A DNA stretch of 64,000 nucleotides from Polytrichum commune (Eukaryota; Streptophyta; Polytrichopsida; Polytrichales; Polytrichaceae), in the NCBI GenBank assembly GCA_950295325.1, contig OX485808.1, positions 18,868,527-18,932,526 of the forward strand, written 5' to 3'. Of the stretch, positions 26,629 through 57,445 are shown piece by piece (positions within the stretch are counted from its first letter, which is position 1; each line of letters opens with the position of its first letter). The notes beneath the pieces are model-generated. The model made no database searches. It was not told the DNA's origin and worked only from the letters and a program-made list of their open reading frames with translations. The translations under genes were made by a program, and so were the position numbers.

Positions 26629-29325
26629 ATGGCCATCCCTAACAGAAGCGCGATAGAGATGTTCGGACAGAAGTTGGAGAGTGTCCCAGAGTCAGTGACA
26701 GACGACAATGGGAATGACAATTATGTCCCACAGGAGGACTTCATGAAAGAGTGGACGGCGCTTCTAGAGATGTTAGAGGATGGAACATTCGTTATCCGCT
26801 TCGTCTACCAGCTCAATACCAACGACGATGAACCAGAGCAGTGGGTGCAGATGGCAACATGGGAGATAGATTCCGTGGAGGCACAGGGCAATTACGTAAT
26901 CCTCAACATGAAGTACAACAATGACCACGTCAACGTGTTGCTGGACTACTTGGCATACACCTTCTCCCACAACTACGCGCAGATGCATGTTAAAGAGGAG
27001 GGAAAGCGTTTCGACCTGCCAAAACTCTTCACAAGATATAGCCTAAGTCAACATTGGACAGCAAGGAAATTGACCGCTTTGTGCTTGAACATCTCCAAGA
27101 CCAACAGTGTTGTGTTGGAGGCCAACAAGAAGAAGAAGAGTCCCAAGAAACCAACGCAATCCGGTGTAGGCGGATCTAGAAGTGCTCCGCGGCCTGTTCC
27201 CACTGCGAGCAGATTGACCGAAGGTACGAGCAGACATTCCACTCCTTCGAAGAGAACGAGGGACAACATGGAGAAGTCTGGCGTAACTGAGGGCGCAGAG
27301 GTCAGTTCCCCGCCAGTCATGCCGACTCCTTTGCAGAAAGGAGAGGTACCGGGCGGTGCGAAGGCCACGCGCATCCTTCGAGATTTTAACAGTTACTCGA
27401 AGGACTGCTGGCCAATGGGTCGATTTTTCACATTCAACGTCGACTGCTTCAAATGTGAAAAATCTCCAAACAAGTGGGTAGTGAGGTTACGGGAGACCGG
27501 GGGTGTGAAGTGGCAGTTGAATAACCTCTACAACAACGTCAAGTGGGACATGCAAACAGTTTGTGTGATGCCAAAGGGTTTCACTACCCGTCCCACGGAG
27601 AGGGATTGGCCACGAATCCTCAACGGAGATTTCTGGATCATCGACGGACATCACAGCTTGGAGGCTGCTAAGATCGTTCTGAATGACGACGCCTTCCAAC
27701 ACGAGCTGAAGGGCGACTTGCGCTATTGGAAGTCGTTTGTGGTGTGGTCAGACGACTGGGAGAAGCTCCGCAAAATATCAACGTATTTGAATAGCGGAAA
27801 CAAGACGAAAGCTTTTGAGGCGTCCTGGGCTGCGAATATTGTTGCTGCAAGAGACGTCTGGGTGGCACACGGTAGCCCCCCTAAGGAGAGGGAGAACGCC
27901 AAGAAACCTTCTCCACAGTGGAAGGTAAGTTTATGAACGTGCGTTCGTAAACATCATCTCAATATTTCCTTTCTTGTTTGCATTTTACGAACGTGCGTTC
28001 GTATTTTACTCTTGACTGACATCCATTTTAATATGCAGGCGTTCTGCGACGCTATGGTAGACAAATTCTCCTCCATCGACATGAAGTCTACTTCAACCAA
28101 GTCGGTGCTGGAGTTGAAAGGTGAGCTCAGGCTCATATGCTGTACAACAGACACCTGGGATTTATGGACCCAGTTTTTTGACTCCCACACGTCGGGAGAT
28201 TTAACCAACCCCGACACGGAGGAGAAGTACAATGCCGTTGAGAACTTCGAGTGCCCCCCGCTGCTCAGGGAGTTCTTCAGACCCCTCCAAGGGCTAACAG
28301 AATCGGAGTTGAAGCGATGCGCCGTGCACGCTCTAATGAAAACAGAGGGAAGGAAACTTCCCTATCCAAAAATATTTTTGAAGAGACCCAAGCACAAGCC
28401 CGGGACATACTCCATCAAGGAGTGGTGCGAGCATCGAAAGCTGAAGACAGCAGCAATGAGGGAATTGAGCGCACTGGCACCTCAATACCAAATCTTCGAC
28501 GTCGACGGCGACGTGAAGTGGAATCATTGGAAGGTGTTCAAGCAAGCCTTTAATATTAGAGGCCCCTCAATGCGAAGTCTGGTCAGGGAGCACGCCGCAT
28601 CTTTGAAACTGAAGGGCAACAAACGGACTAAGAAGTCCGAGACGGATGCCCAGGAGGTGGGCCTTTATAAAAAAAATTTGGAGAGGAAGAGGACAGCAAC
28701 ATTCGAAGGAGTGGCGAGGTTTTGCACTGTCACCACAGGCCTAGAGAGGACCACATTCTCTAAGTGGGATGGTAACTTCACCAGGGCGGATGTTAGGGAG
28801 GACCGACGGGGATGCCCATTTGCCCTTATCGATTTCAGGAGCATCCCGGGTGCGTCGAGCCGCGGGACAAAGGACCTGCCATTCTACAACCCATTCATGG
28901 CCAAGTTCATGGAGTACAAATCTCCTGCCATGAGGGAGCCCCACGTTTGGCTATGGATTGTCGAGCACGAGAGGCTGTCGGAAATTCTGGAACTGTACGA
29001 GAAGACCATCAAGTTCGAGTACAGTATTTACCACAGCACCTATGTTCCCGCCAAGACAGAAGGGATCGTTGTAATCAACGAGGCCAGGGGAAACAAGCAG
29101 GTGGGAGCAGTCAGCCTCGTCTTCCTGACCTTCAACCAGCTAAGGGATGGGAGGGTCCCTATCAAGGCTAGCAATGTATTCAAGAAGATATACAACATCC
29201 CGCACCCACCTCCCAAAGATCTATTCCAGGAGACGTTATTTACTGTCATTCCCGCAGTTGAACTCAGGCTGGAATTCTACATATCCATTCTCCAGAGTTT
29301 GACAACCCATGGAGAGACGGTGTAC
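26629..29325 (+). CDS. ParB/Srx-fold-like protein, interrupted by a retrotransposon
   Basis: Exon 1 is 26629-27924 (432 residues) and exon 2 is 28039-29325, joined by a 114-bp GT-AG intron holding two palindromes (27930 and 27984). The ATG directly follows a TTTTGCAG acceptor. Residues about 160-230 form a basic, low-complexity linker. Then WPRILNGDFWIIDGHHSLEAAK (Asp at about 339) matches the ParB/sulfiredoxin-type pattern DGxHRxxAa, the nucleotide-binding signature of the ParB N-terminal fold, with a conserved-looking helical region after it. Exon 2 encodes about 430 further residues (KRPKHKPGTYSIKEW, PHVWLWIVEHERLSEILELY) and ends within VELRLEFYISIL...THGET, where a Ty3/gypsy LTR begins. 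The TAA at 29326-29328 belongs to the LTR edge, not to the gene. Coding exons in the same style resume at about 42265. Function is unknown; DNA binding or nuclease or NTPase activity is inferred from the motif only. Confidence 0.6.
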
Positions 29326-31565
29326 TAATGCACCCCGTGGGTCGTTCCCTTGCAACTTAGCTCAAGAAGACTCACGGTAAGACATCACGTAAATTTATAT
29401 TCGCTTGAGAATTACCGTGCCTCATTAATATGTTCGGTCCTCTAATTAATAATTCCTCTCTTCTCCTTATGATATGAATATATTATTAGAGTGAACACAA
29501 TCTCATTATCTTAAATTCTCATTCTCAATGTAAGGCATCATTGATTATAAGAATCCTTAGATTAGAGAAGGTTTCAAGAGGTGTAACAATATCCTTGATA
29601 GCAATATATTTTCTAATAAGTTATATGTGAGCAATTTAGAGCTCGTAGTACATAACATCAATCACACAATTGTTAATATTACTCTTATAGTGAGGAAGAA
29701 GATCTCATGTTCTTGAGTCTTCCTTTTTAAGCTCAAGTGTTACTACTTATAATATTATAACTTGATATATATATATATAGTAGTTTGAAATTTCATGAAC
29801 ACATCGTTGATTGTTTTGCAATATCACGTTTAACTTCAAAGTGTTTCTTGATGACGATAGTAATTATAACTCTCTTGAGTTTTTCTCAAGAGAGAGAACT
29901 CTTCTCTTCAATAGTTAATCCTTTACTTGTAATGACATCCAACAACTCACAAAGTATCTTAAGAGAATAAGCACTTTTACTACAAAGTGTTTCTTGATGA
30001 CGAGAAGTAAACCTATCTCTCTTGAGTTTTGCTCAAAAGAGAGAGAGAGATCTTCTCTTTAATGAATAATTCTTCAAATTGTAATGACATCCAACAACTC
30101 ACAAAGTATCTTAAAAGAAGTTCAATAACAATTGTAGTAAGTAGATTATCTTATATCAATATTACTTCATTCATATGTATTCAAACTTTGATGTGAATTA
30201 ATGTCTTCATCATTCTTGTCAATCACAAGTTCAACAATCAATATGTAGTATAATATGTATAATACTTATAAGTCAATTATGTAGTTTTCAATAATAAGCT
30301 CCTCCTCTTTTGAAGGAGTTTGTAATCGTTAAGTGGTTTTGCTTTAAACATGCATATAATTCTTCAATCATTCAATCACATGTATATTTATAATTCCCTT
30401 TTGAGGAGTTCAATGATAAGTTCCACTTTAGAGAGTCAATCGTAATTCCGACGTTCAAGTCAAATTGTCGTTACTACTCACAACAACTACTCTCAAAGTT
30501 CCATTGATACTCCAACTCTTCTTGAGCGCTTTGTTCTCACCCTCGCACTAATACTTTGAGTTCTTTCTCAAAGTGCTTACTCTTCTCTCGTTTAATAATC
30601 TCTTGAGTCACAAGTACCAATTGACAACTCGTAGTTCGACTTGAGAAAGAGAGAGAGAAAGGTCACACACATTTGTGGAAAAGATATTGTATTGCAAAAG
30701 AGCTCCGAGAGGAGAGATACAAAGAAACTCAAGTGTTTTTAACACTCAAATTTGTGATAACTTCGTTGTGTAGAAAATGAGGTATAAGTCTCATAATTTG
30801 CTTCCCTTATATAGTCTTTTCTCCCTATCCAAAATCTATACTAAGAGTGGTTGTTAACTTCCACTTCCATAGATACTAGCTATCTTTGATATATGTAGAT
30901 GCCATCTATCCTAAACGGTTATAACCGTTTTACTATTTGAATGTTCAAATTACTAAAATTCTACTATATCCTTGTCGTGGCTACATTGTAGTTCCTTTTG
31001 AGAATGTAATCAAATCTCCACCATTGCTTGATTCCAATGATTTGTATTTAAACATACTAGTAGAATCTACCCTTGGCCTATATGCTCATAATGCATCTTC
31101 ATAATGTATAAGAATCTAAAATTCTTACATAATTCATGCTTCTTCAAAATATTCCATAAACATGTCTCTTCGGATAATCATTTATCCTCAAAATCCTATA
31201 TTCTATCTATCTCCTAAAGGCTTCATAATGCTTTTTCAAAATAGTCCTTTAAAATCTTATACTTCTTTATGCCTCCTAATGCTCAATACTAACTCCTCCA
31301 TGCTAGTATAGTGTCCTCCTACTCAATTCCTAAGTTCTCCTTCATTAAAACGCTGATGGCCCTATACCCGTGGGTAAGGGACCCCATAACCGCGCGTAAG
31401 GTACGTATTTCCATGACAGTGACCCTATTACCGTGGCTGAGAGCTCTTCGGCATTCTTCTTCGGCGTTCTTCTTCGGCATTCTTCCTCTTCATCTCCAGG
31501 GTTGTTTTGATGTTGTTATGCACTCTAACTTGCCTCTTCCTCTCTTATAATGTTGTTGCTTAACA
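29326..31565 (-). repeat. 3' LTR, about 2.24 kb
   Basis: It is the reverse complement of the solo LTR at 52466-54683, including the ends (TGTTAAGCAACAAC at one end, GGGGTGCATCA at the other, the last with one base changed here). On the minus strand it has a TATA box at about 30805-30816 (CTATATAAGGG). A segment of about 160 bp containing CACTTTGTAGTAAAAGTGC and TGAGTTGTTGGATGTCATTA is tandemly duplicated (about 29930-30110). Small ORFs inside are not genes. Confidence 0.9.
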
Positions 31566-31582
31566 TTTTACCCCCTCCCAAG
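31566..31582 (-). promoter_or_regulatory. Polypurine tract of the Ty3/gypsy element
   Basis: On the minus strand a purine run (CTTGGGAGGGGGTAAAA) directly abuts the 3' LTR, where the plus-strand primer of reverse transcription is expected. Confidence 0.7.
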
Positions 31583-31597
31583 AGGAAGATCCTGCCC

Positions 31598-34500
31598 TCA
31601 GGATCGCTTTGGGATTTTCATGCTTCCAGGGTCATATTGAGGGAGGTAGAGCAATGTGCGTGCATGTGGTGTTGATATGATCCTTTGCTCCAGTGTGCGT
31701 TTCCGATCTTCAAGGGCCCTGGTTATGTATCCATTTAGCTGTATTCGGTGAAAGCTTTGCGGAAAAGAGTCAGGGTATTTTCTGACAAGGTCTTGGTGTA
31801 GGTGACTGGCTTGATGTAGAAGTGAAGTGTCCTCTCCTGCTAATGTATCAAGTGCAGATAGGAAGTCGGGAAAGTTGGAATCGGCCATCTGTTGTATCTC
31901 CTTAACTAGGTCTAAGTCATATGGTTCAATCTGAGGCAGTGAGTTCCTGTTTTCTATGTTAGTATAGAACTCTTCATGATGCCTTTGAATGTGGTTAAGG
32001 GCCGAAATGCAAAACCTTGTGAGATAGAAATTTGGGTTTGTGGATGTTATTTCTGCGAGTCCCTTTGGTAAGACCAGATCCTTTAGAACCCACATAAAAA
32101 TTAGCAAATCCCTTGCAGCTGAGTTCGCTTTTGCCCATAATTCCTGAAATTGTTCCTTTGAGAGGTGACTCTTGTTCCAAATGTCGGGAAGGTTGCTCCA
32201 TCTCAAGATCATAGGTTTGAATGCTCTGTAGTACTGAAAAATACTAACTGGGGGTGGCAGATTTTGCATTGTTACTGTAATAGCATTGCCGAGATCTTCA
32301 ATGTTATCAAACCCTAAGAGACGCTCTAATGCGTAAGGATCTGGTATTTCTTCCTCTTGTTCAATCTTGGCTTGAAGTTCATCTCTCTCCGCTATTACCT
32401 GGTATAGTTCCGTTCTGAGAGTCCTAAGTGTGTGATGGATTTTGGTTGTGACTCTGTGTAGCAGTTTTTGTGCCGACATTTGTTCCTCTGTCGCAGGTTG
32501 TTTTTGAATCCATAAATCGAAGGCTTCGATTTTCGCAATTTCCATTACCCTGTCTTGATTTGAACGTGCTTGTGTATCTAATGTGTGAAGCTGTGTGCTG
32601 TAAGAGGCAAAGTCCTGCTGGAATGCTTGCAGGTTCGTTAAAATTTGGTGCCGAATGTCGGTGACAGTGCTGCGGAGTTGTTTTGATTTTTGCTGTAATT
32701 GATGTTCAGCGATGGCGGCTATCCTGGTTTGGTGTTGTCGGTAGTTTTGGATCTGGTCGCGGTGTTCCTGCTCCTGTCGTTGAAGGTTCTCCGCAAGCTG
32801 TTTGATGTTGACGATTTCGGCAGCATGTTGTGTTCGAAGAAGCGTTATCTCCTGGTGGTGTCGGTTCCTTTCAGCAGCTATCTGCTGGTCCATTTCGGTT
32901 GCATGCTGGCTTCGCAGGTTTTCTATTTGGGTTCGAAGTTCCTGATTTTCTCTTTGGCTGGCTGTAGCAATTCGGTGAGTGTGCCCTTCTGCTGCTTCGA
33001 TTTTTGCTTGGAGTTGCTGGTTCTCCTCAGTAAGCTGGTGGATTCGTTCCAGCGCTTTGGTGTAGAGGATTGATTTCTGCTTGTTGTCTTCGTCAATTAG
33101 TCTTTGTCGTTCTTCTGATGCTTTGTATTTGCTTTGTAGGAGACCGAATTCCTGTCTTAACAGGTTGTACTCTGCTTGAGAGGCGTTGTGGTGTGGTAAT
33201 TCGGCGTCGCGATGTAGTGCTGCTACTATCCCTGTTTGGGAATTTGGGGTTTCTTTTTGATTTTTGACTTTGTTAGACTGCTGCGCAGGTGCCGCTACAG
33301 ACTGGCTTCGGAGAGGCTCGGAGTTCGGAGGAGCGTGGTCCGTTACTTCGGCGATTTGCACTGTGTTTTCGGCGATGTTTTTTACTGCGCCTTTGGTTAC
33401 TTGTTGTAGATTCCACCTCTCTTCGGCAGCTGGGTTGTGCAGGCTTTTACTTCGGCGCCGAAGTTCCGTGTCTGTGGCTTGAGGAGTTTCGGCGAACTTG
33501 TTGGGCTCTTCGTTGTAGAGTGTTGATTTTTCTTTAGAGTTTCGGTGGTCGTTGCTGGTTTGATGCCGGCCTTGCTGATCGCCGAAGTTAGTCTGTAGAA
33601 GTTCCAATTTCTGTTCGAGCGGCTGGTTTACTCCTTTAGAGGTTTTGTCGATGCAGCTGATGCGGTCATTGTAACCGATTGCTGGCTCAATGTCGGCTTG
33701 GAGGATTTTTAGTTGAAGTTGGTCGCCTGTCTGAAGAGCTGCGGTGTTTGAAAGAGGCACAGTTGTGGTGTCCCTAAGACGATGTTCCTCTGTTGTACCA
33801 ATGTTTGAGTTCAATTCCCGCATCTCGGAATTTCCTGGGTTGGCCGCTTCTGAATCTGGAACAAATTTCTGTATGTTTTGTATCGCATTCTGATCTGCTT
33901 CGTTAAGTGGTTGCTCATGTTGTACCTTGTTGGATGCTAGTGATGTTTCTGTGATCAAATTCCCGAGGGATTGGGTAGCCTGATTGAGTTGCTGCCAAAT
34001 ACTTCTCAACTGTATTGGGTTGAACTGTAATGTGGTATCGTTTATTGTGCTTAGAAACACATTGTTGGTCGTTGTTGGTTCTATGACTGCACTCAAAGTT
34101 TTTGAAATGTCCCTTTCTTCCTTGAATGAGTCTGGTTTAACATAGGAGGGGTCTCCTAAATCAATAATAATGCTAGGAGTTGGTGTTGGTTTAGCCATGT
34201 CTGGTCCGGCTATGGCCACCAAAATCTGTGGAGGTTCTTTTGTTTTTGATGTTTCCCCTGTGGTGAGTTCCATTGGTTGGGTTTTCCTCTTTTTGGAAAT
34301 TGGTTCCTCTATTAATTCCGAAGGCATAAGAATGCCGGCCTCTATTTCTTGCTGGACTGTAAGCCGTCCTTCACTAATCAGAATCATGGTAAGTGGGGGT
34401 CCCACTAGTGTCCTCAAACTAGTAGTCTTATCCTTGTATAGTGCCTCTTTGAGAGTGATGAGTTCCGTTTTGATGTATGCATAGAACAATGCAGGCCAAT

Positions 34501-34666
34501 CAACTTCTCTTCCATTTAGAGCATCTTGTATGTGTACTACTGCTGTGCATGGTATTGTATTGGCACTGGTTCTTAGTAAAAACAATGAATTGAAAAACTT
34601 GAGAGGTTTTCTTGCCTCAAGAATTGTGCAGTCGTTAATCTTGCATGTTCCAATCTTGGTCTTCAT
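31598..34666 (-). CDS. C-terminal extension of the Ty3/gypsy polyprotein: gag-like/coiled-coil region
   Basis: About 1,020 residues in a frame shifted by one base relative to the upstream ORF. The shift maps to a run of seven T on the minus strand (about 34746-34752): codons upstream of the nominal ATG in this frame already continue the sense of the previous ORF, so the two were one reading frame. The first 120 residues are globular (NGREVDWPALFYAYIKTEL, SLRTLVGPPLTMIL). A low-complexity Thr/Pro/Glu region follows, then a very Gln/Glu/His-rich coiled coil (about residues 490-760), then a helical C-terminal domain. I know no standard pol domain here. It is like extra ORFs reported downstream of integrase in some plant gypsy lineages, but I cannot place it. 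Confidence 0.6.
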   Translation of the reverse strand: MKTKIGTCKINDCTILEARKPLKFFNSLFLLRTSANTIPCTAVVHIQDALNGREVDWPALFYAYIKTELITLKEALYKDKTTSLRTLVGPPLTMILISEGRLTVQQEIEAGILMPSELIEEPISKKRKTQPMELTTGETSKTKEPPQILVAIAGPDMAKPTPTPSIIIDLGDPSYVKPDSFKEERDISKTLSAVIEPTTTNNVFLSTINDTTLQFNPIQLRSIWQQLNQATQSLGNLITETSLASNKVQHEQPLNEADQNAIQNIQKFVPDSEAANPGNSEMRELNSNIGTTEEHRLRDTTTVPLSNTAALQTGDQLQLKILQADIEPAIGYNDRISCIDKTSKGVNQPLEQKLELLQTNFGDQQGRHQTSNDHRNSKEKSTLYNEEPNKFAETPQATDTELRRRSKSLHNPAAEERWNLQQVTKGAVKNIAENTVQIAEVTDHAPPNSEPLRSQSVAAPAQQSNKVKNQKETPNSQTGIVAALHRDAELPHHNASQAEYNLLRQEFGLLQSKYKASEERQRLIDEDNKQKSILYTKALERIHQLTEENQQLQAKIEAAEGHTHRIATASQRENQELRTQIENLRSQHATEMDQQIAAERNRHHQEITLLRTQHAAEIVNIKQLAENLQRQEQEHRDQIQNYRQHQTRIAAIAEHQLQQKSKQLRSTVTDIRHQILTNLQAFQQDFASYSTQLHTLDTQARSNQDRVMEIAKIEAFDLWIQKQPATEEQMSAQKLLHRVTTKIHHTLRTLRTELYQVIAERDELQAKIEQEEEIPDPYALERLLGFDNIEDLGNAITVTMQNLPPPVSIFQYYRAFKPMILRWSNLPDIWNKSHLSKEQFQELWAKANSAARDLLIFMWVLKDLVLPKGLAEITSTNPNFYLTRFCISALNHIQRHHEEFYTNIENRNSLPQIEPYDLDLVKEIQQMADSNFPDFLSALDTLAGEDTSLLHQASHLHQDLVRKYPDSFPQSFHRIQLNGYITRALEDRKRTLEQRIISTPHARTLLYLPQYDPGSMKIPKRS

Positions 34667-37600
34667 TTTCTCCTTGATGTTGGGAAATATGTCTGCTGCA
34701 TGTACCCTTGGTGTCCCTGGCTCCCTCTTGGCGATGAATGTGTTGAGAAAAAAATACTCCCTTCATTGTCTGCCTCCATCCCTTGCTGAAAATCGGAATC
34801 GTGTGTCCATTGAGTCTTGTTTGCATTGTGTCCACATCTAAATTGGTAATCACCTCTTGTATGACACTTGCATTCATAATCTCCCAGGTGACTCTTGTAA
34901 TGAATCGATCTAACCCTATAAGCTGTAAGAAGGTTTCTTCTTCTCTACTCGGCTCGTAATCCAAAGCACCCATATCTGTGCTAAATGTAATATCTGCAAT
35001 GGACCTTGTCATTGCTGCCTTTCCCTTCTCCTTGGCAGTCAAACCCATTGTGACATTACCTAATCCAATCCCCCAAAAGCTAATTGTTTCTATCAACCTC
35101 TCAGCTAAAATTTCTGACTCACTGAAATGAAGGTTGTTTTGCTTCTGATAAGTGCTAAGTAATCTCACAACTCTCTTCAATTCTGTGTAACTGGTATATT
35201 GAAACACTGTCCTCGAATGCCTGGACCAAGCTAAAGACGTCTTCAGTTCAGAGAGACCTTCCTCGAACTCTGCTCCAAACAGCTGTGAAAGAGAACTAAG
35301 ACTTGTGAATCTTCTGAGAGGTAGCCTTGGGAAGTCTGTTGCTAATGTCCTTGGGACAGTCTGATTAATGATGTATTCGGGTAATTCTGTTACGCTTCTT
35401 GATGTTAGCTGGCCGATCCAGCTAGGCCTTTTAACCCTGTAATTTCTGACATGGCATCTTGGTGGCTTTATCATCTTCTTACTTGTGTGTTGACAAGGTG
35501 TAGCTCCTTTATGCCTTCCTGACTTAATGCCTTCTTGTGATACCTCTTTTTGATTTGCAATTCTCTTCATGTGTAAATGGGTGGATATGGGTCCATGAAG
35601 AATATTATCTTGGATCTTTGGAATGACAGTAATTTGATGTATTATAAGTGTAATTTCAGTTCCATTGAAATTTTCTGTACTCTGTGTGGCTTTAAATTGG
35701 ATAGTATGTCTTTGAATGGATGAATGTAGGGGCGTTTTCCATTCTTGCGTAAGATGTCCATTATAGTGTAGTAGTCTAATCACGAATAGTGTATAGATTA
35801 TGCTCCATAAGTGTACCATTTTTCCACATGCGTGGTTTAAACTTCGCGTGGTAGCCAATTTGTAATGTGTATAGTTTGTTACGTCCTCCGCACATGTCAT
35901 GTTATCATAATGATGTTGTGGAATTTGACGTGTGTCTATCCCGTTGCATGCGTATGGTTCGCACCTTTCTTCTTTTGAGAGGTAAGATTTCATAATCACC
36001 TTGGTTGAAATTGATTGATCATGAACCCCATTTGCCAATGGTTGTATGGAATAACATTCCAATAATTTATGGTGAACTTCTTCATAATCCGGGGATGTAA
36101 AAATATTCATCCCGTCTTGGTTAAAAGTGATAACTTGGCTGGGGTTAACCCAGTCATATGGTAAAAACTTCTTCGATCCCCATCGTCCCAATTCTTTTTG
36201 ATGTATGGTCTTGATCTCAATGGTATCGTCATCGTGGATTCTTGTGATGGTGTATGGTCCCACCCATTTTTGTTGTTCAAAAGGTGTCTTGATTTGTATG
36301 TGTGGTAGATATTTGCTCACTACTTTTTGCCCTTTGTAAAATCTGCATGGTTTCCTTGAATGGCTTGATTCTCCCTTGTGGTGGTTGGTATTAATGGATC
36401 CGTTTATACAATTCGTACTTGTATTGTCAAGTGATGAGTTCGCGGCGTCATCCACTTCTAAAACATATGCCTTTGCTTCAAGGGGTTCATGATAAGGTTT
36501 AATCTTACTCATATTCACCCTTCCGAGATTTTCTCCTTGTAATGTGCTTACATCCACGGTATTGTTGTCATAAATTTCTGTAATTTCGTAAGGTCCACTC
36601 CATCGGATTCGGAATTTGCCCGGTCCGGGTTTGTTCATCCTTTGATGCCACAAAATCTTTTGACCCTTGTAAAATTTGGGACTTTTATTTTGTTGTGAAT
36701 TCTCCTTTGCTTGATAAGTGTTGTCGGTCTTTTCCTTGGTGTCATAAGAGGGTTTCTTGCAATGTTTGCACCTCTTGCCTTCTATTAAAGTTTTATCTTG
36801 TCGTCTTTTTCTCATAATTTGAGTGTGCTCGATATTTTCCTCCGCTTCGATACGGGTCAAATCTAAGGTCTTTAATTGTTCCATTCTCCTCTTAAGAACG
36901 GGGTGCCATTCTTGACTCTTTTGTAGATTTTCCTCGTGGTAAATGAATGTCAATGGAAGTAATGCTTCCGTTCCAAATACCAATGAGAATGGTGTATGCT
37001 TGGTGGTGACTTTGTATGCCGTTCTATATGCCCATAGTGCCGCATATAGTTTAGTGTCCCAATCCGTGCGATTGGCGTTTACCATTTTGGTAAGTGTTGT
37101 TTTAATGACTTTGTTGGTGCTCTCCGCTTGGCCATTAGCTTGAGGGTAGTAAGTTGTTGATTTACGATGCAAGACCATAAATGTCTTGGTTAGAATTTGG
37201 ATTGTCTCGTTTAGAAAGTGACTCCCTTGATCACTAACTAGTTCAATCGGACATCCGAATTTGGTGATGATCTCCTCAAATATGAATTTCGCGGTAGATG
37301 CCGCGGTATTATCCTTAAGTGCTCTTGCTTCTACCCATTTGGTAGTGTAATCCGTGGCCGTGATGATGTATCGATTTTTAGTACCCTTGGCGGGAGGATT
37401 GATTGGTCCTATAAAGTCTAATCCCCATCTTTGAAAGACTTCCGTAGGCATGATTGGGTGTAGTGGTTGTGCGGACTTGGAGACTTTTGGTCCCACTATT
37501 TGGCATATGTCGCATTGTTTGCAATACATATACACATCCCTTTTCATAGTAGGCCACCAATAGAGAGCTGTCAATATTTTGTGCAATGTAATATTTGCCG

Positions 37601-39404: not shown

Positions 39405-39407
39405 GTA

Positions 39408-42260: not shown

Positions 42261-42262
42261 TG

Positions 42263-43438: not shown

Positions 43439-43936
43439 GTAACTCATCTCTGAGAATACCTCTCATTTTACGAACGCGCGTTCGTAACCAACTAACCCCC
43501 TCGTTTGTTATTGGCGCTTCATGTCCGGCGGCATCAGGAGGCCCGCGCGAGCCTTTTCTGCGTGACACCCTAGGCCTGCCAGTTTTGTAGGACAATTTTG
43601 TAGGACACGGAAATTGTGATAGATTATCACGTGAGACATTTGTAAATATTCAACGGATTTAATATATGAGCAGTTTATCTCTGCATCGGATTTTCCCAAT
43701 TTTGTGCATCGTCTATTCAATCCCTGTGTTGTGAATGGTCTGGCGTCTCTATAAACTCTTGTATGCCCCTTCCTCAATCACGAACGCTCGTTCGTAAATG
43801 TGTGCGACCCAGTGTCCACCTCCTTCACGAACGAGCGTTCGTAGATTATGCCTGTAATCTCACTCACTCACGAACGTTCGTAAATGACGCGCGCCGCCAC
43901 CCGCAGCCCTCATTCACGAACGCGCGTTCGGAAGTG
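43361..43936. repeat. Palindrome cluster in the intron before the FCP1-like exon
   Basis: Sites at 43361 (coding), 43467, 43777, 43824, 43867 and 43913. The last four are 47, 43 and 46 bp apart, and the one at 43867 has lost 4 bp at its centre. The intron runs from 43439 to 44053. Spacing matches the cluster upstream of the ParB-like exon. Confidence 0.85.
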
Positions 43937-44053
43937 TGCCTCTGAGCGCATTCGCATTGCACTCTAAACCCTCGCTCCCTCGTCATTCCCTTAATGCAAT
44001 TTTAATTTATTTATTGGACCATATCATTGAACTAGTTAAATTGTTAATCACAG

Positions 44054-44821
44054 GACCCCACGAAGTTAAATCGCAACCCGTCGGCGAGTGGGCCTCAGAC
44101 CCGTCACAAGCCCTTCCTGGTTCTTGACCTTAACGGGGTGTTGTGTCACACCCAACACATCCCCAAGGTCCCCACCCGTTCCTTCCGCCAACCCGACGAG
44201 ATGGACTACGACGGCCAGCTCGACACTCTGATAAACTGCAAGGCCGTCCGCGCCCGTCCAGGCGTGCGGGACTTCCTTCGAGAGGTGCTCGACCTCTTTC
44301 ACGTGGTCGTCTGGAGCTCCATGATCATGGAGAACACGGAGGCCATCGTCGACTTCCTCTTTCGTGGCCTCCCGAGACCATGCCTCGTCCTCGGCCAAGA
44401 TGCGTGCGACGATCTAGTCGACGAGAAGGGGTTTCCCGTGCCCAAGTTCGGCGGTCGAGGAGGGGGACAACAGTTCCTCAAGGTCCTCCGGTCCAGGTTG
44501 TGGCAAGGCATCCCCATTCTCGAGGGGGTCCCCCACGGACATTGGCCTACGCCGGAGAACACCCTCCTCGTCGACGACAGCCCAACGAAGAGCGTCCTCA
44601 ATCCCCCGGGCACCGTCGTCTTCCCCGACACTTGGACCGGCGATAGGAAAGATACCTTTTTGGTCGATAAGCTAGCACCTTATCTTAGAATGCTAGTGCT
44701 CCACCCCGGGAGCATCCCCGATTTTGTTAGGTCCAACCCCATCGGCAACGCCGCGCTTAGTCCCCGCGACAATGTATATAAGAGCATCGTGCGGCTTGCA
44801 AAAATCAATAAATTGATTTGA
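44054..44821 (+). CDS. FCP1/NLI-interacting-factor-like phosphatase domain (HAD fold), divergent
   Basis: The exon begins after TTAATCACAG at 44054 in frame with the GAG end of the previous coding exon, and encodes 255 residues to the stop at 44819-44821. HAD-phosphatase motifs are visible: motif I is FLVLDLNGVLCH (first Asp present, second Asp of the usual DxD replaced by Asn), motif II is VVWSSM, and motif III is NTLLVDDSPTKSV with the Asp pair kept. Asn in motif I would remove the usual general acid/base, so activity is doubtful unless this subfamily works differently. FCP1-like enzymes dephosphorylate Ser/Thr, for example on the RNA polymerase II tail, but the target here is unknown. It is GC-rich compared with its flanks. 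It is either the C-terminal domain of the ParB-like gene or a captured host gene. Confidence 0.7.
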   Translation, partial: DPTKLNRNPSASGPQTRHKPFLVLDLNGVLCHTQHIPKVPTRSFRQPDEMDYDGQLDTLINCKAVRARPGVRDFLREVLDLFHVVVWSSMIMENTEAIVDFLFRGLPRPCLVLGQDACDDLVDEKGFPVPKFGGRGGGQQFLKVLRSRLWQGIPILEGVPHGHWPTPENTLLVDDSPTKSVLNPPGTVVFPDTWTGDRKDTFLVDKLAPYLRMLVLHPGSIPDFVRSNPIGNAALSPRDNVYKSIVRLAKINKLI

Positions 44822-44892
44822 ATTGCCACCGTGTATTTGTTTGTTTCCATGTGGATCACATTTCTAATTCCTTTTTTGGATGCCTTTTGGTC

Positions 44893-44932
44893 GTGTTTGT
44901 TGTTGTTGTTGTTGTTGTTGTTGTTGACAGTT
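44893..44932 (+). repeat. (TTG)n microsatellite
   Basis: About ten TTG units in the 3' region of the FCP1-like exon. Confidence 0.85.
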
Positions 44933-45023
44933 TGCCCCGCCTTGCGACGCCCCCCTCCTCGATGGCCCTTTCATTCCCCGCTCGGCCCCTCCCTCCCCCT
45001 CGCGCGACGCGTCGAACTTCCGA

Positions 45024-45859: not shown

Positions 45860-45949
45860 TGGGACGGACTCCCTAAACTAAAAATAGGTTCAAGGCTATT
45901 AGATATTATCTATGACTTTAGATTTTATTTCGTGTTCTCCAAGACATTG

Positions 45950-46231
45950 ATGGTTTTTCCATTATCCTTGTATTTCATTCCAATTGAATTCATTCAATTT
46001 CCATTCATCATCCGTATCTTGCCTTCCATTCATGACCATTTCTCATTTCATACGCCAATATTTTCATGTATGCTTCACATTTTCGTTCAATTCCATGCTT
46101 TTATGTCTAATTATTGTTTCCAACCCTATACATTTCCGAGTTTTAGTTCGTAATTACTAGTTCTTATTTGAAATGTGCGTCCTTAAATAGTCTCAAAATC
46201 ATCTAAAAGTCTCTAATTAATGAATATAGTG
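45950..46231 (+). mobile_element. Right inverted terminal region (ends ...GAATATAGTG)
   Basis: The last bases are the reverse complement of CACTATATTC, and about 280 bp inward match the inverted sequence at 22605-22890. The next base outside is the start of the 244-bp palindrome array. No 2-3 bp target duplication is shared with 22605 or 17211, so ends may have decayed or been rearranged. Confidence 0.6.
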
Positions 46232-46234
46232 TTT

Positions 46235-49200
46235 TTGTTCAAAAAAGTGTGTCTCGGTCCCGAGACACCCTAGACAAGGGTAATGAGTGGGCTGACTTCA
46301 GTGTGAAATCAATTGGGTTAGAAGTCGATAAGGTTGTGATTAGGCCTGAATCTGATTTAAGTGTGAAGTGAACTTGGGTTATATGTTGCTTAGGTTGTGA
46401 TTATGCCTGAATCTGATTTAAGTGTGAAGTTGGTAAGGCTCATATAAGGCCTGAAATCAAATCTCTTAATGTTAGCTTTGTTCAAAATAGTGTGTCTCGG
46501 TCCCGAGACACCCTTGAGAAGGGTATTAAGTGGGCTGACTTAAGTGTGAAATCAATTGGGTTAGAAGTCGAAATGGTTGTGATTAGGCATGAATCTGTTT
46601 TAAGTGTGAAGTGAGGTTGGTTTATATGTTGCTTAGGTTGTGATTAGGCTTGAATCTGATTTAAGTGTGAAGTGAGTTTGGGTTGTATGTTAATAAGGTT
46701 GTGATTAGGCCTGAATCTGATTTAAGTGTGAAGTGAGTTTGGGTTATATGTAGCTTAGGTTGTGAGTAGGCCTAAAATCTGATTTAAGTTTGAAGTTGGT
46801 AAAGCTGATATAAGGCCTGAAATCAAATTTTTGAAAGTCACATTTGTTCAAAATAGTGTGTCTCGGTCCCGAGACACCCTTGAGAAGGGTATTAAGTGGG
46901 CTGACTTAAGTGTGAAATCGATTGGGTTAGTAGTCGATAAGGTTGTCAATAGGCCTGAATTTGATTTAAGTGTGAAGTGAGCTTGGGATATATGTTGCTT
47001 AGGTTGTGATTAGGCCTGAATCTGATTTAAGTGTGAATTTGGCAAGGCTCATATAAGGCCTGAAATCAAATCTGTTCATGTTAGCTTTATTCAAAATAGT
47101 GTGTCTCGGTCCCGAGACACCCTTGAGAAGGGTATTAAGTGGGCTGACTTAAGTGTGAAATCAATTGGGTTAGGAGTTGATAAGGTTGTGATGAGGCCTG
47201 AATCTGATATAAGTGTGAAGTGAGTTTTGGTTATATGTAGCTTAGGTTGTGATTAGGCCTGAATCTGATTTAAGTGTGAAGTTGGCAAGGCTCATATAAG
47301 GCCTGAAATCAAATCTTTTAAAGTTAGCTTTGTTCAAAAAAGTGTGTCTTGGTCCCGAGACACCCTTGAGAAGGGTATTAAGTGGGATGACTTAAGTGTG
47401 AAATCAATTGGGTTAGAAGTTGATAAGGTTGTGATGAGGCCTGAATCTGATTTAAGTGTGAAGTGAGCTTAGGTTCTATTTTGCTTACGTTGTGATTAGG
47501 CCTGAATCTGATTTAATTGTGAAGTTGGCAAGGCTCATATAAGGCCTGAAATCAAATCTTTTAAAGTTAGCTTTGTTCAAAAAGGTCTGTCTCGGTCCCG
47601 AGACACCCGAGGCAAGGGTCTTCAGTGGGCTGAATTCAGTGTGAAATCAATTGGTTTAGAAGTTGATAACGTTGTGATGAGGCCTGAATCTGATTTAAGT
47701 GTGAAGATGAGTTTGGGTTATATGTAGCTTAGGTTGTGACTAGGCCTGAATCTGATTTAAGTGTCAAGTTGGTCAAGCTCATATAAGGCCTGAAATCAAA
47801 TCTCTTCATGTTGGCTTTGTTCAAAATAGTATGTCTTGGTCCCGAGACACCCTTGGGAAGGGTATTAAGTGGGCTGATTTAAGTGTGAAATCGATTGGGT
47901 TAGAAGTCGATAAGGTTGTTAATAGGCATGAATCTGATTTAAGTGTGAAGTGAGCTTGGGATATATGTTGCTTAGGTTGTGATTAGGCTTGAATCTGATT
48001 TAAGTGTGAAGTGAGTTTGGGTTATATGTTTCTTAGGTTTTGATTAGGCCTGAAATGTAAATTGTTCAAAATAGTGTGTCTCGGCCCCGAGAGACCCTAG
48101 AGAAGGTCTTAACTGGGTTGAACAATATTTGTAGTCAGTTGGGTTAGGATGTTGGTAAGGTTTTTGTTAGGCCTGAAATCAACCTTAAGTGTGAATTGCA
48201 TTTGAATCTGATGTTGGTAATAATGTGATTAGGCCTAAAATCTGATTTAAGTGTGAAGTTGGTAAATCCGATATAAGGCCTGAAATCAAATTTTTGAAAG
48301 TCACATTTGTTCAAAATAGTGTGTCTCGGTCCCGAGACATCCCTGAGAAGGGTATTAAGTGGGCTGACTTAAGTGTGAAATCGATTGGGTTAGTAGTCGA
48401 TAAGGTTGTGATGAGGCCTGAATTTGATTTAAGTGTGAAGTGAGCTTGGGATATATGTTGCTTAGGTTGTGATTAGGCCTGAATCTGATTTAAGTGTGAA
48501 TTTGGCAAGGGTCATATAAGGCCTGAAATCAAATCTGTTCATGTTAGCTTTATTCAAAATAGTGTGTCTCGGTCCCGAGACACCCTTGAGAAGGGTATTA
48601 AGTGGGCTGACTTAAGTGTGAAATCAATTGGGTTAGGAGTTGATAAGGTTGTGATGATGCCTGAATCTGATATAAGTGTGAAGTGAGTTTTGGTTATATG
48701 TAGCTTAGGTTGTGATTAGGCCTGAATCTGATTTAAGTGTGAAGTTGGCAAGGCTCATATAAGGCCTGAAATCAAATCTTTTAAAGTTAGCTTTGTTCGA
48801 AAAAGTGTGTCTCTGTCCCGAGAAACCCGAGGCAAGGGTCTTCAGTGGGCTGAATTCAGTGTGAAATCAATTGGGTTAGAAGTTGATAACGTTGTGATGA
48901 GGCCTGAATCTGATTTAAGTGTGAAGATGAGTTTGGGTTATATGTAGGTTAGGTTGTGATTAGGCCTGAATTTGATTTAAGTGTCAAGTTGGTGAAGCTC
49001 ATATAAGGCCTGAAATCAAATCTCTTAATGTTAGCTTTGTTCAAAATAGTGTGTCTCGGTCCCGAGACACCCTTGAGAAGGGTATTAAGTGGGGTGACTT
49101 AAGTGTGAAATCGATTGGGTTAGAAGTCGATAAGGTTGTTAATAGGCCTGAATCTGATTTAAGTGTGAAGTGAGCTTGGGATATATGTTGCTTAGGTTGT

Positions 49201-50520
49201 GATTAGGCTTGAATCTGATTTAAGTGAGAAGTGAGTTTGGGTTATATGTTTCTTAGGTTTTGATTTGGCCTGAAATGTAAATTGTTCAAAATAGTGTGTC
49301 TCGGCCATGAGAGACCCTAGAGAAGGTCTGAACTGGGTTGAACAATATTTGTAGTCAGTTGGGTTAGGATGTTGGTAAGGTTTTTGTTAGGCCTGAAATC
49401 AACCTTAAGTGTGAATTGAATTTGAATCTGATGTTGGTAATAATGTGATTAGGCCTAAAATCTGATTTAAGTGTGAAGTTGGTAAATCCGATATAAGGCC
49501 TGAAATCAAATTTTTGAAAGTCACATTTGTTCAAAATAGTGTCTCTCGGTCCCGAGACACCCTAGACAAGGGTATTAAGTGGGATGACTTAAGTGTGAAA
49601 TCAATTGGGTTAGAAGTTGATAAGGTTGTGATGAGGCCTGAATCTGATTTAAGTGTGAAGTGAGCTTAGGTTCTATTTTGCTTACGTTGTGATTAGGCTT
49701 GAATCTGATTTAATTGTGAAGTTGGCAAGGGTCATATAAGGCCTGAAATCAAATCTTTAAAAGTTAGCTTTGTTCAAAAAAGTGTGTCTCGGTCCCGAGA
49801 CACCCGAGGCAAGGGTCTTCAGTGGGCTGAATTCAGCGTGAAATCAATTGGGTTAGAAGTTGCTTAGGTTGTGATTAGGCCTGAATCTGATTTAAGTGTG
49901 AAGTGAGTTTGGGTTATATGTAGCTTAGGTTGTGACTAGGCCTGAATCTGATTTAAGTGTGAAGTTGGTAAGCCTCATATAAGGCCTGAAATCAAATCTC
50001 TTAATGTTAGCTTTATTCAAAATAGTGTGTCTCGGTCCCGAGACACCCTTGAGACGGGTATTAAGTGTGCTGACTTAAGTGTGAAATCAATTGGGTTAGA
50101 AGTCGATAAGATTGTGATTAGGCATAAATCTGATTTAAGTGTGAAGTGAGTTTGGGTTGTATGTTGCATAGGTTGTGTGTAGGCCTGAAATCTGAATTGT
50201 TCAAAATAGTGTGTCTCGGTCCCCAGAGACCCTAGAGAAGGTCTTAACTGGGTTGAACTATGTTTGAAATCAGTTGGGTTAGGATGTTGGTAAGGTTTTT
50301 GTTAGTCCTGAAATCAACCTTAAGTGTGAAGTGAGTTTGAATATGATGTTGGCAATAATGTGATTAGGCCTAAAATCTGATTTAAGTGTGAAGGTGGCAA
50401 CGCTGATATAAGGCCTGAAATCAAATTCTTGAAAGTCACATTTGTTCAAAATAGTGTGTCTCGGTCCCGAGACACCCGAGACAAGGGTGTCTCGTTGGCT
50501 GAATTATGTGTGAAATCAGT
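46235..50520 (+). repeat. Tandem array of ~244-bp monomers with GTGTCTCGG/CCGAGACAC palindromes
   Basis: About 18 monomers. The palindrome (9-bp arms, centre TC) starts near 46249, 46492, 46858, 47101, 47344, 47587, 47831, 48077, 48319, 48564, 48808, 49051, 49297, 49542, 49786, 50030, 50213 and 50457. Each monomer seems built from about four 61-bp subunits sharing TTAAGTGTGAA and AGGCCTGAA. A higher-order period of about 1.22 kb (five monomers) is visible: the variants at 47587, 47831 and 48077 reappear at 48808, 49051 and 49297. The array ends about 300 bp before a TTTTCCGCAG acceptor, so it lies within an intron of the downstream gene. Confidence 0.9.
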
Positions 50521-50827
50521 TGGGTTAGGATGTTGGTAAGGTTTTAGTTAGGCCAGAAATCAACCTTAATTGTGAAGTGAATTTGAATTGGATGTTGGTT
50601 ATAATGTGCTTAGAGTTGAAATCTGAAATTTCATTGTTGGTTAAATGATTATTGGATTGTAATTAGGCCTGAAATCTGATTTGAGTGTGAATTTAGTTTA
50701 TATGCCAAGATGTTGATTACACCAAAACAGATTATTTGACTTTGAGTTTAGTTTGGGTTGGTTGTTGGAAAGGCTGTGATTAGGCCTGACATCAAAATTG
50801 GAAAATTAAGCATTGGATTTTCCGCAG

Positions 50828-53800
50828 AGTTTGGGAGCTACCGATCTTGAAACTTACGTTTCAAATGCTATTGAAGGCATCATGGACCATGATGAGCAGA
50901 ATGTTGGGGAAGAGGTAAGTACTCACGTAGTTACATAATGTGTGAATTAGTTGTACCTTATGCCATGCAGCTTTGTGTCTTAAATACATACCTGTGTTTT
51001 GTAGGTCGAGTGCCCCACCCCCCAGGACTCACCGGCACCGGCTTCACCGGCAGCGACTCAAGCTTCAAGAGAGACTGCAATTGATCTTGACAGTTCTGAT
51101 GAAGGTCAGGATGAGGATGAAGATGGGCTTGGAGATAAGGATACGTTTGACGGGGATGAAGATGAACTTAGATCCCGTCAGAAATTGAATTCCGTGGCCA
51201 TGATCTCTCAATTGAGAGTCAAACTTTTCAGTTCATCGAGGTTCAATATTCCTTTATGTAGAATGCTTGCCATGCCTATGGTGAGGCCAACACTCTCAAC
51301 TGATCTTGATAAATTGGAGCAGGAGTTTGTCCATGGGTATAGAGAGGGCTCCTCAGTTTCTTATGTGACATTAACAGATGAAGAAGGCAAAACACAAGAG
51401 GTGTCTGAAGCTGATAAGGCATCCTGGGGTCCCATTTGGAATTCAAAAAATGAAGAATTCAATTCCTATCTTCAGTCTGTTCCGGAGTTAGCCGGTTTCA
51501 AGGATTTGATGTTCTTTGTATGTGACGGTAACCATAGGCGTAAGGCATGGTTAAATCATATTGAAAGACTTTACAAAATAGATGAGGCCTGGCATTATAT
51601 GGTGGATAGCATCCTACTTGACACAAAAGGCAAAGTTGGGGTTGTTATGCAAGTGATGCATAACATCAACAAGTAAGTTTTGTTAATTAATTTGTATTTC
51701 TTTTTATGTAAAATGCTTCTTGTTATACCATTAATGTCATGTGCTAATCCGCCCTTTTTGATTGATAATTGCAGGCATACTGAAGACTCTCACGTCAAGA
51801 CCAACTTTGTTCACACCCTTTTTAGGATTCAAAAGTATGGTCTTATGCCAATCGAACATTATCAAAACATATTGACTCCATCAGAGATGAAGAGGTGCAA
51901 GAGAACTCAAAATGCCAAAAAAACTTGGTACACATTGAATCTTTAAGTATTCACGAACTTCATCTTCCGGGTATGATCTCTATAATATGTACTGCATTTT
52001 TTTAATCACTAACATATTGTCATTATCTAAAATCAAATGATCACCTAGGTTACAGTATACTTGGATGACTAACTAAGTCTACCCCTGTGCAGCATGAACT
52101 TGGACTTGCTGCAGATGAGGGTGTTTGACAACTTGTGGAGCAATCAGATGTAGAAGTGTCCGCCGCTGAAAAAACAACCGCTATGAAAGTTGCTACAAAG
52201 AAAAGAGCCAAGGCACTTCATAAGAAAATGTCGAAACTAGTTGCTCTGGCAAACCCGGACTTGACGGATGGATGGCTTCGAGAGGTATAAACTCTACTTT
52301 ACAAGCACATTTTTCAATCTTCATGTTCTTTAATGACCCCTGAGATTCTAATAAATAGCTATATGTTTCACAGATTGGACGTCACTATAGTCTTAACTCA
52401 ATTACACCCGAGCTCAATATGGAGAAATTGCAGTTGATCGTTATTGCAAAAGCATCGGCCGCTTCTGTTAAGCAACAACATTATAAGAGAGGAAGAGGCA
52501 AGTTAGAGTGCATAACAACATCAAAACAACCCTGGAGATGAAGAGGAAGAATGCCGAAGAAGAACGCCGAAGAAGAATGCCGAAGAGCTCTCGGCCACGG
52601 TAATAGGGTCACTGTCATGGAAATACGTACCTTACGCGCGGTTATGGGGTCCCTTACCCACGGGTATAGGGCCATCAGCGTTTTAATGAAGGAGAACTTA
52701 GGAATTGAGTAGGAGGACACTATACTAGCATGGAGGAGTTAGTATTGAGCATTAGGAGGCATAAAGAAGTATAAGATTTTAAAGGACTATTTTGAAAAAG
52801 CATTATGAAGCCTTTAGGAGATAGATAGAATATAGGATTTTGAGGATAAATGATTATCCGAAGAGACATGTTTATGGAATATTTTGAAGAAGCATGAATT
52901 ATGTAAGAATTTTAGATTCTTATACATTATGAAGATGCATTATGAGCATATAGGCCAAGGGTAGATTCTACTAGTATGTTTAAATACAAATCATTGGAAT
53001 CAAGCAATGGTGGAGATTTGATTACATTCTCAAAAGGAACTACAATGTAGCCACGACAAGGATATAGTAGAATTTTAGTAATTTGAACATTCAAATAGTA
53101 AAACGGTTATAACCGTTTAGGATAGATGGCATCTACATATATCAAAGATAGCTAGTATCTATGGAAGTGGAAGTTAACAACCACTCTTAGTATAGATTTT
53201 GGATAGGGAGAAAAGACTATATAAGGGAAGCAAATTATGAGACTTATACCTCATTTTCTACACAACGAAGTTATCACAAATTTGAGTGTTAAAAACACTT
53301 GAGTTTCTTTGTATCTCTCCTCTCGGAGCTCTTTTGCAATACAATATCTTTTCCACAAATGTGTGTGACCTTTCTCTCTCTCTTTCTCAAGTCGAACTAC
53401 GAGTTGTCAATTGGTACTTGTGACTCAAGAGATTATTAAACGAGAGAAGAGTAAGCACTTTGAGAAAGAACTCAAAGTATTAGTGCGAGGGTGAGAACAA
53501 AGCGCTCAAGAAGAGTTGGAGTATCAATGGAACTTTGAGAGTAGTTGTTGTGAGTAGTAACGACAATTTGACTTGAACGTCGGAATTACGATTGACTCTC
53601 TAAAGTGGAACTTATCATTGAACTCAAAAGGGAATTATAAATATACATGTGATTGAATAATTGAATAATTATATGCATGTTATGATTTAAGCAAAACAAC
53701 TTAACGATTGCAACTCCTTCAAAAGAGGAGGAGCTTATTATTGAAAACTACATAATTGACTTATAAGTATTATACATATTATACTACATATTGATTGTTG

Positions 53801-54815
53801 AACTTATGATTAACAAGAATGATGAAGACATTAATTCATATAAAAGTTTGAATACATATGAATGAAGTAATATTGATATAAGATAATCTACTTACTACAA
53901 TTGTTATTGAAGCTTCTTACTTTAAGATTCTTTGTGAGTTGTTGGATGTCATTACAATTTGAAGGATTATCTATTCAAGAGAAGATCTCTATCTCTCTTG
54001 AGCAAAACTCAAGAGAAATAGGTTTATCTTCTCGTCATCAAGAAACACTTTGTAGTAAAAGTGCTTATTCTCTTAAGATACTTTGTGAGTTGTTGGATGT
54101 CATTAACAATCAAAGAGGAGTTCTTTCTCTTGAATAAACCTCAAGAAAGTTATAATTATTCTTGTCATTAAAACACTTTGAATGTTAAACGTGACATTGC
54201 AAAACAATCAATGATGTGTTCACAAAATTATAACTACTATATGCATACATGTCAAGTTACAATATTATAAGTAGTAACACTTGAGCTTAAAAAGGAAGAC
54301 TCAAGAATATTAGATCTTCCTCATCATTATAAGATTACTATCATTTGTGTGATTAATGTTTATGAACTACTAACATTAAGGATTCATACAATTTACTGAA
54401 CACTATATTATCAAGGATATTGTTACACCTCTTGAAGCTTTCTTTAAATCTAATGGTTCTTATTATCAATGATGCCTTACATTGAGAGTAAGAATTAAGA
54501 TAATGAGATTGTGTTCACTCCAATAATTATATTCATATCATAAGGAGAAGAGAGGGATTATTAATTAGAGACCGAACATATTAATGAGGCACGGTAGTTC
54601 TCAAGCGAATATAAATTTACGTGATGTCTCACCGTGAGTCTTCTTGAGCTAAATTGTAAGGGAACGACCCACGGGGTGCATCAGCTTCTAAGGTTAAATG
54701 GTTGGAATATTTAAACTCCTCTGCATCTACACGTGAGGCCCGCAAACTGCCCCGTAAGCCCACCAACGAGGAGAAACTGGGTGCATTTCTAGCTAAGGCG
54801 TGCTTTTGGGCCGGA
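50828..54815 (+). pseudogene. Second ParB-fold-like gene, partial, broken by a stop and a solo LTR
   Basis: Exons with good GT-AG borders: 50828-50914; 51005-51672; 51775 to about 51946; 52093-52284; 52374-52465 continued at 54689-54815. Before the ParB-like motif is a Pro/Ala then Asp/Glu-rich stretch. Exon 2 contains LMFFVCDGNHRRKAWLNHIE (Asp at 51524), a clear DGxxR-type ParB/Srx signature, followed by VVMQVMHNINK and, in exon 3, FRIQKYGLMPIEHYQNILT. Exon 4 has an in-frame TGA at 52126, one transition from CGA; exon 3 also meets a stop at 51944 unless it splices earlier. The last visible exon ends at a GTGAGT donor inside the second repeat array. Both outer introns consist of the 244-bp array. 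Only the short DGxxR-type motif is shared with the gene at 26629. Upstream and downstream exons are not in the window. Confidence 0.55.
52466..54683 (+). mobile_element. Solo LTR of the Ty3/gypsy family, 5-bp TSD GCTTC
   Basis: Runs from TGTTAAGCAACAAC to GGGGTGCATCA and is flanked by GCTTC at 52461-52465 and 54684-54688. It is the reverse complement of the LTR at 29326-31565. A TATA box (CTATATAAGG) is at about 53217. It interrupts an exon of the second ParB-like gene; ignoring one TSD copy, the reading frame continues across it. Internal sequence was lost by LTR-LTR recombination. Confidence 0.9.
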
Positions 54816-56565: not shown

Positions 56566-56570
56566 TAAAA

Positions 56571-56612
56571 CACTATATTCGTTAATTGGAGACTTTGGAA
56601 AGTCTCTAAATA
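56571..56612 (+). mobile_element. Left terminal repeat of CACTA-like element, DUF7869 copy 2
   Basis: CACTATATTCGTTAATTGG followed by GAGACTTT-GG-AAAGTCTC. It is inserted into a monomer of the 244-bp array (GGGATGACTTAA just outside). The other end is not in the window, so the element spans at least 7.4 kb. Confidence 0.65.
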
Positions 56613-57345: not shown

Positions 57346-57445
57346 TAAAATGTGTCTAATATACTAGTATTCGACCCCCATGTCATATATTTCATGAAAA
57401 ACCAAGACACATTTCAAATAACTTTGGTCCAAACCTACGTCAATA

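Follow-up and report, generated by a model that had tools for sequence, protein, structure and literature searches.

The window considered here is a stretch of 64,000 nucleotides (nt) from the plant Polytrichum commune (assembly GCA_950295325.1, contig OX485808.1, positions 18,868,527 to 18,932,526 of the forward strand), and features are given below by its own coordinates. It carries two genes for ParB-like proteins, ParB1 and ParB2, and arrays of short palindromes, in a setting of DNA transposons. ParB1 lies within part A (17209-46233), while ParB2 and the arrays of the GTGTCTCGG palindrome occupy the interval between A and part C, the sequence starting at 56569. An earlier note, made from the letters alone, had picked out IIDGHHSLEAA in the gene at 26629 and VCDGNHRRKAW in the gene at 50828, and both are present in open exons. 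The exon limits of the two genes were read from splice signals, and genes and palindromes are laid out as follows (LTR, long terminal repeat; ORF, open reading frame).

26629-27924, + strand: ParB1 exon 1, 432 open codons, ATG directly after a CAG acceptor; contains IIDGHHSLEAA
27925-28038, + strand: ParB1 intron, GTAAG...CAG, with two palindromes, at 27930 and 27984
28039-29328, + strand: ParB1 exon 2, 429 open codons, ending at an LTR
50828-51946, + strand: ParB2 gene, exons near 50828-50912, 51005-51673 and from 51775
20779-22081, unstranded: 16 TTTACGAACG-NN-CGTTCGTAAA palindromes upstream of the DUF7869 gene of A, most in a 310-bp tandem repeat
26043-26597, unstranded: 9 dispersed TTTACGAACG-type palindromes upstream of ParB1
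42994-43934, unstranded: 7 TTTACGAACG-type palindromes, two of them within ORF 42125-43453
46249-50475, unstranded: 18 palindromes GTGTCTCGG-NN-CCGAGACAC, in repeats of ~243 bp
55236-56536, unstranded: second GTGTCTCGG array, 5 palindromes and a degenerate one, stopping where transposon C starts
60683-61818, unstranded: 9 palindromes upstream of the C gene, mostly of TTTACGGACG type; that at 60683 is TATACGAACG and that at 61474 a hybrid

Palindrome arrays

The half-sites TTTACGAACG and GTGTCTCGG each have 35 exact matches in the window, as against 0.14 and 0.26 expected, respectively, which bears out the earlier claim that each ParB-like gene has its own palindrome array. They pair as TTTACGAACG-NN-CGTTCGTAAA and GTGTCTCGG-NN-CCGAGACAC, and the architecture is that of a two-fold palindrome with 9-10 bp arms and a 2-bp spacer; a third type, TTTACGGACG-NN-CGTCCGTAAA, stands at 60867-61797, upstream of the DUF7869 gene of C, and in the palindromes of the ParB1 family CG flanks the spacer on both sides. 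Allowing up to 5 mismatches gives 44 sites of the first type (none in 10 first-order Markov controls) and 24 of the GTGTCTCGG type (5 in total over 10 such controls). Part A has 34 TTTACGAACG-NN-CGTTCGTAAA sites at up to 4 mismatches (A type), 10 of the 44 first-type sites fall in transposon C, mostly as the third or C type, and the region between A and C has 23 GTGTCTCGG-NN-CCGAGACAC sites, all in tandem repeats, the 24th match (55242, 5 mismatches) being excluded from the flank, arm and G-U analyses.

Leaving out the tandem array and two 4-mismatch sites (20779 and 43863), 19 dispersed first-type copies carry, in bits per column, 0.09 and 0.21 in the flanks (0.14 in random columns), 0.65 in the spacer and 1.68 in the arms, the last figure being partly by construction, given that arms were the criterion for selecting the copies. 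Since the flanks are unrelated, these palindromes are more than duplications of a single stretch. For the GTGTCTCGG sites, majority frequency in the surrounding 190-bp stretch is 0.96 in the arms against 0.85 elsewhere, again partly by construction.

The fold of the ParB-like proteins

The part of ParB1 that holds IIDGHHSLEAA (residues ~267-395) is predicted to have the ParB/Srx (ParB/sulfiredoxin) fold, as indicated by structural alignment to an AlphaFold model whose pLDDT (predicted local distance difference test) runs by block from 64 to 91 across residues 261-390. Residues ~12-167 of exon 1 give a weak match to a PH/FERM-like N-terminal domain. Foldseek comparison of the model with PDB returned nothing at E<=0.001 (best 3e-3), and 8 of 37 ParB1 rows matched the ParB-like profile phrog_1033, with a best E of 0.015. 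The open ParB2 exon 51005-51673, which carries VCDGNHRRKAW, has 231 relatives, 120 of them listed and 29 aligned; its AlphaFold model (30 rows) is poor, with a mean pLDDT of 60.7, and with this poor model Foldseek and VIA-align found no clear match, while 8 of the 30 rows matched phrog_1033 at a sub-threshold best E of 0.082. Comparison of the ParB1 and ParB2 family profiles was not significant, the sole aligned stretch being the DGxH motif. A ParB fold had been proposed for both proteins; model and alignment uphold it for ParB1 and leave it putative for ParB2.

The protein family of VANC, a transposon protein considered below, is DUF1985; ParB1 exon 1 and the ParB2 exon match no Pfam family at E<=1, so the VANC family was not found in them. 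Only weak matches (E>=1) came from tblastn, whether for the ParB1 exons and the ParB2 exon against phages or for a portion of ParB1 exon 2 against plasmids, and among IMG/VR viral contigs, in a search that may omit the window's own genome, neither palindromes nor relatives were found. By eye, ParB1 exon 2 has an order resembling that of N6/N4 methyltransferases (ALIDFRS; HVWLWIVEHERLSEILELYEK; IPHPPPKDLFQ...GETVY), in which the position of the catalytic DPPY would read DFRS; this is unsupported by Pfam, NCBIfam, PHROGs and PDB sequences and remains a lead.

Clade-specific palindromes in relatives of ParB1

As read back from predicted proteins, the private palindrome differs between clades of ParB1 relatives. 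The start of the intron can be read in the relatives because their gene predictions run past the exon end into it, and in the window itself the first intron palindrome starts 5 nt 3' of the 5' splice site. Among 72 first-family proteins 40 have a recognisable exon end; with 2 too short and 1 without family label, 16 rows of family I and 21 of family II (32-34% identical to ParB1 in the alignment) were scored. An A/C-type palindrome fits in 14 of the 16 family-I rows (at most 3 mismatches in 20), where the TTTGGGTCG or G type fits none (at least 4 mismatches), and TTTGGGTCG-NN-CGACCCAAA fits in 18 of the 21 family-II rows (at most 2 in 18), where the A type fits none (at least 6). Related genes lacking any palindrome, which the earlier note would have taken as telling against it, are thus not what this family offers. 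The rows that do not fit are P0006 and P0007 (8-residue tails) at the A-type cut and P0146, P0149 and P0157 at the G-type cut.

The TTTGGGTCG pattern was derived from the same family-II tails on which it was scored. Shuffled tails did as well as the real ones in at most 4 of 201 cases in the 14 family-I rows and at most 2 of 201 in the 18 family-II rows, the real tail being counted in. The pattern is present in three reading frames (VWVDRPK, LGRSTQT, FGSIDPN), so that its signal is not explained by a shared peptide; words like VSGDRPK (P0151, P0154, P0156) permit, without forcing, a variant TTTCGGGCG-NN-CGCCCGAAA. Measured from the 5' splice site, the best palindrome starts at 5 nt in 11 of the 14 family-I rows that fit, just as in the window, and at 9-10 nt in 13 of the 18 that fit in family II.

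By the words that separate TTTACGAACG from TTTACGGACG, P0017 and P0182 are of the second type; a discriminating word is present in 28 of the 72 proteins, located in P0002, P0009 and P0179 in an N-terminal extension and not in the intron. In a tree made from the exon alone (42 rows, 14 without label and P0179 absent; the alignment took 36 of the 72 ParB1 relatives) a single branch separates each type from the rest, with support of 99/99 for A (14 rows, counting the window), 99/97 for C (2) and 100/100 for G (12). Type changes number 2, the minimum, as against a shuffled mean of 10.9, and none of 200 shuffles was as low. Taken by itself the C group has weak backing, 14 of 500 shuffles having come out as low; its P0182 sits on a long branch and fills 32% of the columns, and the tree program flagged a joining of long branches, those of P0017 and P0182 with family II. 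Palindrome words, GTGTCTCGG-type read-through included, occur in none of the 120 listed of the 231 ParB2 relatives. The proposed private pairing of protein and palindrome accordingly gains support in the ParB1 family and none for ParB2, which is represented by one locus.

Transposon setting

17209-17240, + strand: left inverted end of A, AACACTATATTCGTTAATCGGAGACTTTT, matching the left end at 56569 and, as reverse complement, the end at 46233
46204-46233, - strand: right inverted end of A, by terminal-sequence match
17611-20775, - strand: DUF7869 gene of A, open stretches 17611-19119 and 19162-20775; Pfam PF25273, E=1.6e-39 on 17611-19119
56569-60616, - strand: transposon C, left end 56569; DUF7869 gene 57446-60616, with one TTTACGGACG-type palindrome at 59065 between its open stretches

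Ends of the form AACACTATATTCRTTAATYRGAGACTTT are found at 17209, 46233 (inverted) and 56569, and at both A ends and the left end of C stands AACACTATATTC with two A in front, as in a CACTA start. The second DUF7869 gene, on the minus strand, has a Pfam E of 4.4e-24, and the two open stretches of the A and C genes are 82% and 70% identical. In a Pfam scan of nine ORF stretches DUF7869 was the only transposase-type family; to call it a transposase is our interpretation, the Pfam label being that of a domain of unknown function, and a literature search on DUF7869 turned up no paper. A degenerate inner copy of the end near 22600 (22617-22875 against 46219-45978, 76.5%) suggests that A may be two neighbouring elements, and its flanks show no matching 3 bp as a target-site duplication, which A being two elements might itself account for; a single intact element at 17209-46233 is doubtful for both reasons. 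The ParB-like domain of ParB1 is encoded within DNA-transposon sequence, with exact element boundaries uncertain, as is the membership of ParB1 and the A DUF7869 gene in one element.

Comparison with known systems

Algal transposons, e.g. Sola1-1 of Ectocarpus, are described in passages of PMC12477816 as carrying ParB-like and DNA-methyltransferase accessory proteins, the ParB-like ones being suggested to bind and modify their own element. There, as here, the ParB-like gene adjoins a transposase-type gene on the opposite strand; here, unlike there, the parts are CACTATATT-ended and of DUF7869 type, the methyltransferase resemblance is by eye only and palindromic arrays are present, the main text of PMC12477816 having no word beginning 'palindrom'. 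ParB1 is most fittingly classed with these algal proteins, as a variant. The system had been thought undescribed, which does not hold for ParB-like transposon accessory proteins, already reported from algae, and does so far hold for their pairing with clade-specific palindromes, not found in print in a literature covered by listings, abstract openings and passages.

A functional parallel is offered by the VANC proteins of VANDAL transposons (PMC5735166; PMC10398659). In these, too, a transposon protein goes with a short private motif repeated in noncoding DNA and introns, and VANC and its motif change together (PMC5735166), as the protein and palindrome lineages appear to do here, where noncoding DNA and introns of the element likewise carry an array of its private motif. 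The VANC motif, YAGTATTAY, differs in being of nine bases and arrayed in one orientation as opposed to two-fold palindromes, and the protein fold is another.

With ParB-parS of the ParABS systems the window shares the ParB N-terminal fold in ParB1 and palindromic sites near the gene; it differs in having dozens of sites, in being transposon-borne and in the arginine box and helix-turn-helix (HTH) domain, to which we return. A survey of the ParB-CTPase fold gives sulfiredoxin as the most common eukaryotic form, binding of CTP, ATP or GTP, and methyltransferase fusions in phages; no word in its text begins 'transpos' (PMC12704722). CACTA/EnSpm elements resemble the present parts in ends that contain CACTATATT and in repeats near a transposase-type gene, and differ in that DUF7869 is the only such family here and A lacks matching 3-bp flanks.

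What might the palindromes serve?

The account that we tentatively favour, at just short of an even chance, is that ParB1 and probably ParB2 are DNA-transposon accessory proteins acting through their own palindrome on their own family. Each element lineage would keep its own palindrome in many copies, placed ahead of its genes and, for the family of ParB1, also inside the ParB-like gene, just past the 5' splice site. The ParB-like protein would bind the palindrome as a dimer, a mode of binding suited to two-fold sites whose 2-bp spacer varies, and would gather on copies of its own element; there it would alter their chromatin state and expression, by anti-silencing and autoregulation as with VANC in Arabidopsis, thereby acting on its own family and sparing the host. 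Given CG beside the spacer on both sides, such putative binding could depend on cytosine methylation. We build here on the predicted ParB1 fold, the arrays, the transposon setting and the clade-specific palindromes, and from them infer binding, the identity of the binder among the element's proteins, nucleotide use and an effect on silencing.

A number of findings pull the other way. The phosphate box in ParB of ParABS is the arginine-rich GERRxR; no box of that type was found in the ParB1 family (DGQHS) or the ParB2 family (DGNHRR), ParB1 reading GQHS/GHHS in its place with DGQHS as family consensus. Loss of the conserved P-motif arginine abolishes nucleotide binding in the ParB-CTPase fold, according to passages of PMC12704722, which puts in question any nucleotide use by ParB1, where it is lacking. 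Profile scans of the ParB-like proteins identified no DNA-binding or HTH domain. The clade signal consists of two changes only, in palindromes back-read from protein. In relatives the view is confined to the ends of the ParB-like exon, and this is part of the reason why the ParB1 intron stands out. The covariation is with the lineage of the element, so the binder could be any of the element's proteins; as the ParB-like protein and the transposase both travel with the element, it cannot separate them. Palindromes also stand upstream of both DUF7869 genes, the 10 sites in C include one of A type (60683) and one hybrid (61474), and the ParB2 reading rests on a single locus and an unconfirmed fold. 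A bolder version, in which transposons of at least two families carry a ParB-parS-like machine that loads at private palindromes, spreads over its own copies and keeps them unsilenced, with coevolving specificities, is lowered by the missing arginine in ParB1, and we think it unlikely. If ParB-like proteins do recognise their own palindromes, this would be a second, independent answer to the problem solved by VANC, that of a transposon protein finding only its own copies, with a prokaryote-type fold and simple two-fold sites readable from sequence; its specificity switch could be tested by domain swaps between three natural clades, and the algal ParB-like transposon proteins would gain a concrete DNA target.

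Which protein of the element reads the palindrome? It may be the transposase or another element protein, with sites like CACTA subterminal repeats and the ParB-like protein doing something else, a somewhat unlikely alternative. In its favour, subterminal repeats are what TnpA of En/Spm binds, the DUF7869 genes of A and C are preceded by 16 A-type sites and 9 sites, respectively, and both these genes and their palindromes differ between A and C; that only ParB-like exon ends are visible in relatives strengthens this alternative and weakens the case for ParB as binder. Against it, palindromes are also found well away from the inverted ends, namely ahead of ParB1, within its intron and within a further ORF, and most fitting relatives have a site 5-10 nt past the ParB1 splice site, though that is the only place visible.

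That the palindromes act in RNA as hairpins, e.g. in splicing of the ParB1 intron, has little to recommend it: the palindrome does adjoin the 5' splice site in relatives, and imperfect GTGTCTCGG pairs on the + strand show 5 G-U to 1 A-C, but the A type is reversed (5 G-U to 14 A-C) and the C type even (3 to 3), a mixed and weak test, and 25 of the 34 A-type sites are upstream of genes. Equally improbable in our estimation are passive repeats that follow lineage; tandem repeats hold all of the GTGTCTCGG sites and many of the A sites, and two tree changes can arise by descent alone, but against this stand the unrelated flanks of dispersed copies and the recurrence, in three reading frames, of back-read words with matching arms. 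A host system for partition or centromeres, as a reading of the nuclear protein-site system of the earlier note, is very improbable, for although a ParB-type fold with palindromes would suit it the genes sit among inverted-end transposon parts with DUF7869 genes.

Other features of the window

29328-42344, - strand: Ty3/gypsy-type retrotransposon inside A (type by eye), LTR 29328-31565, ORFs 31598-42344
42125-43453, + strand: ORF of unassigned function, its left part overlapping the retrotransposon ORF, with in-frame palindromes at 42994 and 43361
44048-44821, + strand: NIF/FCP1-like phosphatase ORF inside A, Pfam PF03031, E=1.8e-15

No second LTR was found at the right side of the gypsy-type element. 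Its LTR at 29328-31565 and a solo LTR at 52466-54681, which sits in the later part of the ParB2 gene, are 94.5% alike over 2,253 columns, ~2.2 kb long and opposite in orientation, copies of one LTR thus adjoining or entering both ParB-like genes. The in-frame palindromes of ORF 42125-43453 read EDLRTRVRESS and EVTNARSLIEEE, and the phosphatase ORF is possibly captured cargo. Elsewhere, a large minus-strand ORF at 2886-6140 resembles by eye a hAT-type transposase with a BED finger, a G-rich tandem array of CGGACGGGGGAG-type units lies within overlapping ORFs at 6285-6952, and short interstitial TTTAGGG-type repeats, which fit a plant source, are present at 23345-23375 and 63037-63068.
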